From NCBI GenBank assembly GCA_002898575.1, contig BEHT01000008.1:1-64000 (forward strand): a stretch of DNA of 64,000 bases, given 5' to 3'. How positions within the stretch are numbered: position 1 is the stretch's first letter; each line of letters opens with the position of its first letter. Below, one piece after another: positions 35,804 through 51,814 of the stretch. The notes below the pieces were generated by a model. That model made no database searches. It was not told where the DNA came from and saw nothing but the letters and a program-made list of their open reading frames with translations. A program made the translations under genes and the position numbers. Origin of the DNA: a bacterium HR17. GTDB taxonomy: Bacteria > Armatimonadota > Fervidibacteria > Fervidibacterales > Fervidibacteraceae.

Positions 35804-36520
35804 ATGGCGCCGATGGTGGCGTTTGCCGTGTGGGCGTTCATCGCCCTCATCATCGTCGCTGTTTACGCTTATTGTGTCCTGAGCACTCGTGTTCCATTGG
35901 AGGGAGAAGCCGCTTACAAAGCCGTCAGCCAGTTACGGCGCCCGCTGTTTGTGCTCCTCACCCTCGTGCTTCTCGCTTCCTTTGCCTTGAGTGTGCCCCA
36001 TCTCCCTTACCCGCGCCCCACTTTTCCCGACAAGGTAGTCTATGTGACCGCTAAGCAATTTGCCTTCGCCATCACCGAAAAACCCGTTCGCACGGACGCG
36101 GAGTTTGAAGAGGCGACGACGGCTGAACCCGTAAAAATCCCGGTCAACGCCCTTGTGGAGTTTCGGGTCACGAGTCTGGATGTCAATCACGGCTTCAGCC
36201 TCTTCTCCCCTGATGGGGTGTTGCTCGGTCAAACCCAGGCGATGCCTGGCTATGTCAACCGCCTCTTCATGCGTTTTGACCGCCCGGGCACTTACACATC
36301 TTTGTGCTTGGAGTGCTTTAGTCGAATTTTCCTTTCGGCAGCTCCTCGGAGGGCATGTCTCCTGACGCGCCAATTTCTTTGCGGCGGCTCAGGAGAGCCG
36401 CCCTCCGAGAGCCACCTTGTCGTTCGGAGGGCGCGTCTCCTGACGCGCCGATTTCTTTGCGGCGGCTCAGGAGAGCCGCCCTCCGAGAGCCACCTTGTCG
36501 TTCGGAGGGCGCGTCTCTGA
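35804..36520 (+). pseudogene. ba3-like cytochrome oxidase subunit II, disrupted at the CuA site
   Basis: The first 173 residues read as subunit II of a ba3-type haem-copper oxidase: two N-terminal helices, then a cupredoxin domain (VYVTAKQFAFAITEKP; DVNHGFSLFSPDG with the first CuA His; PGTYTSLCLEC). After this the frame enters a hairpin repeat element (from 36324) and runs through its tandem units, giving a 26-residue repeat and then a stop caused by a one-base deletion. The expected second Cys, His and Met of CuA are missing. Another frame after the element reads GYLVEVGKRWR, plausibly the old C-terminus. No matching subunit I is nearby. Confidence 0.7.
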
Positions 36521-36586
36521 CGCGCCGATTTCTTTGCGGCGGCTCAGGAGAGCCGCACTCCAACCAAAGCCCATTATTCAACACAG
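36324..36586 (+). repeat. Hairpin repeat element, copy A (with 78-bp tandem units)
   Basis: A 263-bp element bounded by GAATTTTC and ACACAG, the same ends as copies at 47.1 and 51.6 kb. Inside, a 78-bp unit is repeated from 36346, 36424 and 36502; the last copy is partial to about 36556, with one base deleted. Each unit holds two hairpins, GGCGCGTC-TCCT-GACGCGCC and GGCGGCTC-AGGA-GAGCCGCC, flanked by complementary arms CGGAGGGC and GCCCTCCG. It interrupts the coxB-like frame. No transposase is encoded; a REPIN- or MITE-like nature is inference. Confidence 0.8.
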
Positions 36587-36612
36587 GGTTACCTCGTGGA
36601 GGTGGGCAAACG

Positions 36613-47014: not shown

Positions 47015-47118
47015 AAGCAAGGCGCGCTTTGCCCTTCGTGATTGCAGTGAGCCCAATAGGAGTTCGGCAAGAGTCCCACACTCCCCGCTTCGTGAGCGCA
47101 GCATCTTTTTGCAGGCTA

Positions 47119-47284
47119 CTGTGTGGGGTTTGGTCGGAGGGCGGCTCTTTTGAGCCGCCCACAGGACAATTCGCCACATTCGGAGGGCGGCTCTCTTGAG
47201 CCGCCGAACAAAATGAACACGAAAAAACGGCGCGTCGGGAGACGCGCCCTCCGAAAGACGCCGAAAAATGAGACGCGAAAATTC
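47119..47284 (-). repeat. Hairpin repeat element, copy C
   Basis: A 166-bp copy in reverse orientation. Read on the minus strand it begins GAATTTTC and ends ACACAG, as in the other two copies. It holds one GGCGCGTC hairpin (loop changed to TCCC) and two GGCGGCTC hairpins with AAGA- and AAAA-type loops, plus the CCGACCAAACCC right arm. It occupies most of the 348-base space between the SCO gene and the DUF420 gene; the rest (47015-47118, 47285-47362) shows nothing else clear. Confidence 0.78.
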
Positions 47285-47362
47285 AGCGCATCGGGATATG
47301 CTCCACCCAGAGGACGACGAAAGGGGAAAAAGTTAGCGGCAAACGGGGGCTGAAAAAGCACC

Positions 47363-51454: not shown

Positions 51455-51625
51455 TTGGAAGACGAACTGAAAGGGCAATACTCTTCGGTTGAAGGCGGCG
51501 GTTTTCGCCTCCTGTTCGTCGCAAGTTTAGCCGCAGCGGTCGGTATCGGTGCTGACGTGCTGGCTTATGTGGAAAAGTTTAAGGTTCCGAGGCTCGTGGA
51601 ATTTTCCTTTTCGGCAGTGCTTTAG
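51455..51625 (+). pseudogene. Small ORF truncated by the repeat element
   Basis: A TTG at 51455 with GAGGGGG eight bases upstream opens a 56-codon frame (MEDELKGQYSSVEGGG, then FRLLFVASLAAAVGIGADVL, helix-like). The frame enters repeat copy B at 51599 and stops within it after nine more codons. Part of this ORF is a hydrophobic helix. I do not recognise it; it may be the stump of a longer membrane protein or a non-gene. The space 51361-51454 before it holds an inverted repeat GAACGAAG (51370) / CTTCGTTC (51422). Confidence 0.35.
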
Positions 51626-51721
51626 AGAGCGCGTCTCCTGATGCACCCTTAAGGTTTTGCATGCCAATTTTCGGCGGCTCAGGAGAGCCCCCTCCGACCA
51701 AACCCTATTATTCAAACACAG
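51599..51721 (+). repeat. Hairpin repeat element, copy B
   Basis: A 123-bp copy with the same ends (GAATTTTC and ACACAG) and the same left arm (CCTTTTCGGCAG) and right arm (CTCCGACCAAACCC, ATTATTC) as copy A. It has only one unit. The left hairpin is degraded (GCGCGTCTCCTGATGCAC) and the right one has lost a base pair. The rest of the 51361-51900 space holds the truncated ORF before it and a promoter after it. Confidence 0.75.
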
Positions 51722-51814
51722 CAGGGTCCTTCGCCGGCGGGCGCTTAGAGGTTTGAGCAAATACAAGTATGGGTAGGGAAGCGTCAGACGGGTCTACGCG
51801 CTCATTGTGCCCTA

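Follow-up and report, generated by a model that had tools for sequence, protein, structure and literature searches.

A putative MITE family carrying a REPIN between its terminal inverted repeats in the genome of bacterium HR17

Three element copies in the window

The window, a stretch of 64,000 nucleotides (C8:1-64000) of the genome G000 (3.15 Mb in 75 contigs, 96% complete), contains three copies of a hairpin-rich element. Copy 1 lies in a COX2-like gene and copy 2 is located between SCO1-like and DUF420 genes. The homology to COX2, within the CuA domain, extends as far as ..SLCLE, where the CuA cysteine motif begins, and ends at copy 1, on the far side of which YLVEVGKRWRLA is found. Copy 1 interrupts this gene. 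The features are listed below; boundaries and duplications of the window copies were derived from other copies in the genome.

35804..36313, + strand: COX2-like gene, interrupted by copy 1 (PF00116 match; alignment to solved COX2 chains)
36314..36588, + strand: element copy 1, with left terminal inverted repeat (TIR), three REP dimers and right TIR, in the COX2-like gene (ends by comparison with better copies)
36314..36331, + strand: left terminal repeat of copy 1 (TGCTTTAGTCGAATTTTC, worn; consensus TGCTTTGTTGAATTTTCC)
36348..36371, + strand: REP a, dimer 1 of copy 1 (GGAGGGCATGTC..GACGCGCC, left arm mutated)
36383..36406, - strand: REP b, dimer 1 of copy 1
36426..36449, + strand: REP a, dimer 2 of copy 1
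36461..36484, - strand: REP b, dimer 2 of copy 1
36504..36526, + strand: REP a, dimer 3 of copy 1
36538..36561, - strand: REP b, dimer 3 of copy 1
36571..36588, + strand: right terminal repeat of copy 1 (CCATTATTCAACACAGGG)
47117..47290, - strand: element copy 2, with worn left TIR, REPs a, b and b, and an internally deleted right TIR
47229..47252, - strand: REP a of copy 2
47182..47205, + strand: REP b (first) of copy 2
47136..47159, + strand: REP b (second) of copy 2
51591..51723, + strand: element copy 3, a single degenerate dimer with both ends
51624..51647, + strand: REP a of copy 3 (degenerate)
51673..51696, - strand: REP b of copy 3 (degenerate)

The first-pass annotation had already recognised the three copies and their orientations (+, -, +), which were borne out, but the true ends lie further out than it had placed them. 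The termini that it proposed, GAATTTTC and ACACAG, are only the inner parts of an imperfect TIR, for which better copies give TGCTKTGTTGAAT and ATTCAACACAGCA. Instead of the described interior of one hairpin of one kind and one or more of another, copy 1 contains three a hairpins (GGCGCGTC) and three b hairpins (GGCGGCTC) that strictly alternate. One a and two b are present in copy 2, and one degenerate a and one b in copy 3. The right end of copy 2 has lost most of ATTATTCA. No clear target duplication was present at any of the three window copies, the best showing about 5 of 8 matches (copies 2 and 3). The hairpin pattern GGCGGCTC-NNN-AGAGCCGCC was matched 12 times in the window, both strands counted, against 0.4 expected, and none of the shuffles reached 12; chance GC hairpins, dismissed from the outset, are thus ruled out. 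The window copies are worn members of a genome-wide, protein-less mobile family.

Structure and distribution of the family

In the whole genome, approximately 300 GGCGGCTC-type hairpins were found without requiring a head (control: one match), a pattern so nearly palindromic that most sites in this count are tallied on both strands. When the GGAG head was required, approximately 320 b-type hairpins were counted (reversed-pattern control: none). The idea of a mobile unit had been made to depend on the presence of further copies with these ends, and the terminal 13-mer, with at most one mismatch, gave 83 matches genome-wide (control: 3). Stretches with a total length of about 1.74 Mb were read, comprising about 1.0 Mb picked around copies and a further 0.75 Mb.

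The layout of the full unit is TGCTTTGTTGAATTTTCC...(a+ b-)n...ATTCAACACAGCA, with monomers of about 130–136 bp, and it reads TGCTTTGTTGAATTTTCCTTTCGGCAGTGCCTCGGAGGGCGCGTCTCCTGACGCGCCCTTA..TTTTCATGCCATTTTTCGGCGGCTCAGGAGAGCCGCCCTCCGACCAAACCCCATTATTCAACACAGCA in the better-preserved genome copies. Its ends, TGCTTTGTTGAATTTTCC and CCATTATTCAACACAGCA, are imperfect inverted repeats of the form TGCT(T/G)TGTTGAAT, and the imperfect pair TGCTTTGTTGAAT / ATTCAACACAGCA delimits 31 two-ended copies. The small monomers, the lack of a coding gene inside and the many end motifs are those of a MITE. Copies are numerous and occur in both orientations. In the sampled stretches the order L+ (a+ b-)n R+ holds nearly throughout the clusters, with few exceptions, and the distance and sequence from the TIR to the first REP and from the TIR to the last REP are constant in essentially all two-ended copies. 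At the threshold used, both ends were present in 33 of the 114 clusters with good REPs, one end in 40 and neither in 41, some of the clusters lacking an end being worn or cut at a stretch boundary. Given these 41 or so end-less clusters, some REPs exist or spread without TIRs, and this was counted against the reading of the family as a MITE with a REPIN.

Two element copies at L163:3600-4080 and L163:4900-5230, about 1.16 kb apart, are near-identical and share their flanking GTAG repeats; this pair is a local segment duplication. The TIR-less REP clusters at L122:2022-2093 and L142:15392-15525 have a similar right flank (taag.gctaaaatg.cctcacc), which is perhaps another repeat.

REP a consists of GGAG-GGCGCGTC-loop-GACGCGCC and REP b, in the opposite orientation, of GGAG-GGCGGCTC-loop-GAGCCGCC; among neighbouring REPs the pairs a+b- and b+a- dominate. 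Because the loops of a and b are complementary (TCTCCTGA / TCAGGAGA), the dimer as a whole also forms a single long, imperfect hairpin, in the manner of a REPIN (z -5.6 as DNA; z -7.8 for copy 1 as RNA). Like a REPIN, the interior has two inverted REPs able to form one hairpin, each with a conserved unpaired GGAG head beside the palindrome. Stem variation keeps pairing: position 6 of the REP a stem is G-C in 181 of 334 and A-T in 113 of 334, although copies within arrays are not independent. A sub-lineage of REP b with the stem GGCTGCTC/GAGCAGCC and a compensatory change at its position 4 was seen at L162:291, L169:2990, L173:1623 and L176:659.

The number of dimers per locus varies from 1 (most loci) to about 15, and the amplified unit is mostly 68–82 bp, with possible misassembly of arrays of 70–80 bp repeats in an assembly of 75 contigs. 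The similarity of the b-to-a spacers is 0.90 within arrays and 0.61 between arrays, showing that the arrays expanded separately, each at its own locus.

Among the 291 genomes of the phylum searched, the family is abundant only in G000. No b hairpins were found in the two genomes of the same genus (61–63% complete) or in the same-family genome, a loose TIR pattern in 60 relatives remained at background level outside G000, and element DNA compared to the four nearest relatives matched only G000 among the matches listed. When 84,980 species genomes were scanned for exact 25-mers, one match was obtained, L180 (CALDGA010000012.1), filed as uncultured Flavobacteriales. As this contig carries the GTAG REP family of G000 as well as the GGAG family, it probably comes from a relative and was binned wrongly.

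REPs with the GGAG head occur more widely. In other families of the phylum (including G266 and G271) they are multi-copy, with several stem types, and some are dimeric. The same-order genome G004 contains TIR-less GGAG b-a dimers (L310 and L311), and the same a/b heterodimer is present in a distant family (L318). Judging by these TIR-less dimers, the REPIN appears older than its association with the TIR ends.

Target duplications, element ends and origin of the unit

For the 31 two-ended copies, the mean identity of the 8-bp flanks was 0.508, compared to 0.275 in a null of re-paired flanks (z 8.0). A 9-bp duplication gave a z of 6.4; all other lengths tested (2–15 bp) gave at most 2.5, the next best being 7 bp (z 2.5). 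Exact target site duplications (TSDs) are CAGCCGCCC, AAAATGGGC and GATGCGGC, and many others are off by one base, indicating that most insertions are not recent. The family appears to be mostly decaying now, since both TSDs and TIRs carry mutations.

The copy at C12:46340-46798 (L153:6340-6798) is 459 bp long, contains six b and five a hairpins and has the exact 9-bp TSD AAAATGGGC. It is located in an Eco57I/MmeI-type methyltransferase gene whose frame stays open through the element, adding 468 bases in frame, or 156 codons of SEGGSPEPPKSGASKDAP-like repeats. A homologue in G034, of the same phylum, lacks the element and is 72% identical over the junction; it is a gene-level empty site with its breakpoints at the TIR ends, the one such case. 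In the same-family genome G003, which is syntenic, the gap at copy 2 is an unrelated sequence of only about 25 bp, and the region of copy 1 is 2.5 kb shorter, while in G002 synteny ends at the region of the window copies. In this comparison with sister genomes, suggested in the first-pass annotation, the breakpoints of the window copies were not resolvable in G003 or G002. Within the sampled genome, a search for paralogous empty sites returned the self-match only. With TIR boundaries, TSDs of 8–9 bp and a gene-level empty site, the unit moves like a MITE, and its earlier description as a defined mobile or spreading unit is upheld.

IS903B has GGCTTTGTTGAATAAATC at its ends and generates a 9-bp repeat (PMC10569121). 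The element ends share with it the 12 consecutive bases GCTTTGTTGAAT, seen also in an annotated IS903B, and each of the two ends is identical to it at 13 of 18 positions; together with the target duplication, 9 bp in the IS903 group (IS5 family) and 8–9 bp here, this is the whole of the resemblance, that is, about 12 contiguous bases and the TSD length. The first base is T here and not G, 8-bp duplications occur as well as 9-bp ones, and the interior of the family is unrelated to the IS903 transposase gene, with no transposase inside the elements and none of the IS903 type found elsewhere in G000. In a search with PF13737, the domain of the IS903-type transposase, there was no match in G000 or in 29 of 30 relatives, and no IS903-type DDE transposase acting on the element ends was found in the incomplete assembly of G000. 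An autonomous IS copy with the same ends in G000 was rejected for lack of PF13737 and of a gene-sized convergent TIR pair, none of the 83 TIR motifs forming a convergent pair 0.7–3 kb apart.

The copies are, in all probability, a family of non-autonomous TIR transposons (MITEs) that carry a REPIN and have been amplified inside. In view of the TIR-less REP dimers elsewhere in the phylum, the family would best be understood as a MITE with a captured REPIN, which combines kinds of element already known. The ends would have been recognised in trans by a DDE transposase of IS903-like (IS5-family) specificity that has since been lost or is absent from the assembly; this enzyme would have excised or copied the unit, about 131 bp long, and placed it at staggered breaks of 8–9 bp. 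An older REPIN, whose lineage is also seen in the phylum without these ends, would have lain inside the founding element and travelled along. After insertion, slippage or unequal exchange between the hairpin repeats may have amplified the dimers locally, resulting in arrays with private spacers.

G000 has a single RAYT (C41:29343; PF01797, NF047646 REP_Tyr_transpos equivalog), which is embedded in dimers of a second, GTAGCGTCG-headed (GTAG) REP family (L062 / L179, C41:28800-30869) that shares the alternating two-stem design of the GGAG family. A RAYT flanked by GGAG-headed REPs of this family was not found in G000, and the RAYT of the GGAG family is missing from the assembly. Elsewhere in the phylum, at L112, inverted GGAG-headed hairpins lie on either side of a RAYT, by analogy with which GGAG is a plausible RAYT-type head. 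It is nevertheless improbable that the family is a plain REPIN or BIME moved by a RAYT, with the dimer as the mobile unit and the outer sequence as passively carried flank. Such movement would agree with the GGAG-headed head-to-head heterodimer and its complementary loops, with the existence of TIR-less dimers, with the RAYT equivalog in G000 and with the GGAG-flanked RAYT at L112, but the TSDs were measured, and the empty-site breakpoints lie, at the TIR ends, the RAYT of G000 is flanked by a different family, and RAYT/IS200-type transposition is not known to create TSDs. A RAYT as mover of the whole unit was rejected as the main cause on the GTAG-headed flanks of the sole RAYT and on the TSDs, which RAYTs are not known to create. 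Of the earlier analogy with REPIN/RAYT-like or MITE-like spread, both halves stand in that the movement is MITE-like and the dimer interior REPIN-like, whereas the link to a RAYT is not supported, the sole RAYT of G000 not being flanked by these hairpins.

Equally unlikely is a history in which IS903-like MITEs were landing sites for repeated REPIN insertion. REP dimers within longer palindromes in Anabaena variabilis and Halothiobacillus neapolitanus (PMC3733652) offer a precedent, and REPs are also found here without TIRs; however, the constant TIR-to-REP distance and sequence in essentially all two-ended copies mean that one founding event is needed, and no REP-less TIR element was seen among the loci read. 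In those two organisms, as here, REP dimers lie regularly within a larger repeated palindrome, but the outer repeat of the present family is set apart by measured TSDs, IS-like ends and an empty site, and it encloses a dimer amplified as much as about 15-fold. Selected functional RNA or terminator hairpins at gene ends, instead of mobile DNA, would suit the strong folds, the pairing-preserving stem changes and the position of most copies between genes or at gene ends, but are very improbable and refuted as sole explanation, any function being secondary, since TSDs, TIRs, both orientations and the coding insertions (COX2-like, methyltransferase) require mobility and no conserved downstream gene class was seen.

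A MITE with a captured REPIN, the reading preferred here, can be compared to other known repeats. Rickettsia palindromic elements are found as in-frame insertions in genes, similar to the copy that adds 156 codons to the methyltransferase gene, but most copies here are intergenic or at gene ends and the family has TIRs and TSDs. With the REPINs and BIMEs of GTAG-headed REPs and their RAYTs (PMC2817692, PMC3116915, PMC3733652) the family has in common the palindromes of 20–30 nt, the unpaired purine-rich head, the head-to-head heterodimers, the tandem and clustered copies in their hundreds and the species-specific abundance. It differs from them in the GGAG head, the position of the dimer inside TSD-making TIRs and the lack of a RAYT flanked by these REPs in G000.

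Solitary REPs and implications

Solitary TIR-less REPs were found between direct duplications of about 17–39 nt with a period of 65–69, unlike the 8–9 bp TSDs of the TIR elements (L131:338-, L156:13524-, L246:3365-, L262:9538-, L123:15473- and L149:11557-). In the first sample, four solo REPs between duplications scored 25.5, 23.5, 21 and 12 (null maximum 13); in an independent second sample, the pattern was present in both solos (L246:3397 and L262:9573). In total, 6 of 6 solo REPs were in such scars, with two composites set aside: L122:3342, which adjoins GTAG repeats, and L162:291, which has a degenerate partner. An unbiased scan for two-copy repeats, REP and CRISPR arrays excluded, gave 9 of 38 at period 65–69 and 0–4 per other 5-nt bin. 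Isolated repeat-insert-repeat units with a period of 65–68 and no REP in the insert were located at L122:8986, L168:16185, L175:3273, L158:5438, L134:15778 and L132:6574; in the unit at L132:6574, the duplicated sequence is the right end of an element copy. A search for donors of the solo-REP inserts gave self matches only or one partial array match.

The CRISPR array of C53 (L174:59-2740) contains 41 repeats of 30 nt (GTTCCGACCCGACCTTGAGGGGATTGAAAC) in 40 units, with spacers of 34–38 and a period of 64–68. It adjoins a REP element copy. None of its spacers had a full-length match in the sampled genome. The cas1 gene (C15:21175-21767, L260:1175-1767) is in two overlapping pieces with stop codons within the first; either the gene looks broken or the assembly looks wrong there. 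The period of the scars is close to that of the array, and on this basis we tentatively propose that the solo REPs are accidents of CRISPR adaptation, in which Cas1-Cas2 put a REP fragment of 33–43 nt off-array and duplicated a target of about 25–33 nt. Off-array integration is known under Cas1-Cas2 overexpression, according to a statement in PMC11788318 that cites Nivala et al. 2018, and one study found that Sulfolobus Cas1 prefers stem-loop DNA (PMC9456107). Rival origins of the scars are template switching at hairpins and a REP-specific insertion, to which the non-REP cases would be unrelated. If the proposal is true, REP palindromes would be preferred adaptation substrates, which would give REPs a third way to spread in addition to RAYTs and MITEs, and the scars would form a natural, dateable record of the frequency of Cas1-Cas2 errors and of any attraction of Cas1-Cas2 to hairpins.

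The family joins two classes of repeats that are usually kept apart, MITEs moved by their ends and the REPs and REPINs tied to RAYTs. Insertion of its elements disrupts genes (COX2-like) or lengthens proteins in frame (methyltransferase). With a REPIN that probably rode a DDE-type transposon, the abundance of REPs is not necessarily a measure of how active RAYTs are in a genome, and similar hitch-hiking may be concealed in published counts of REPs.
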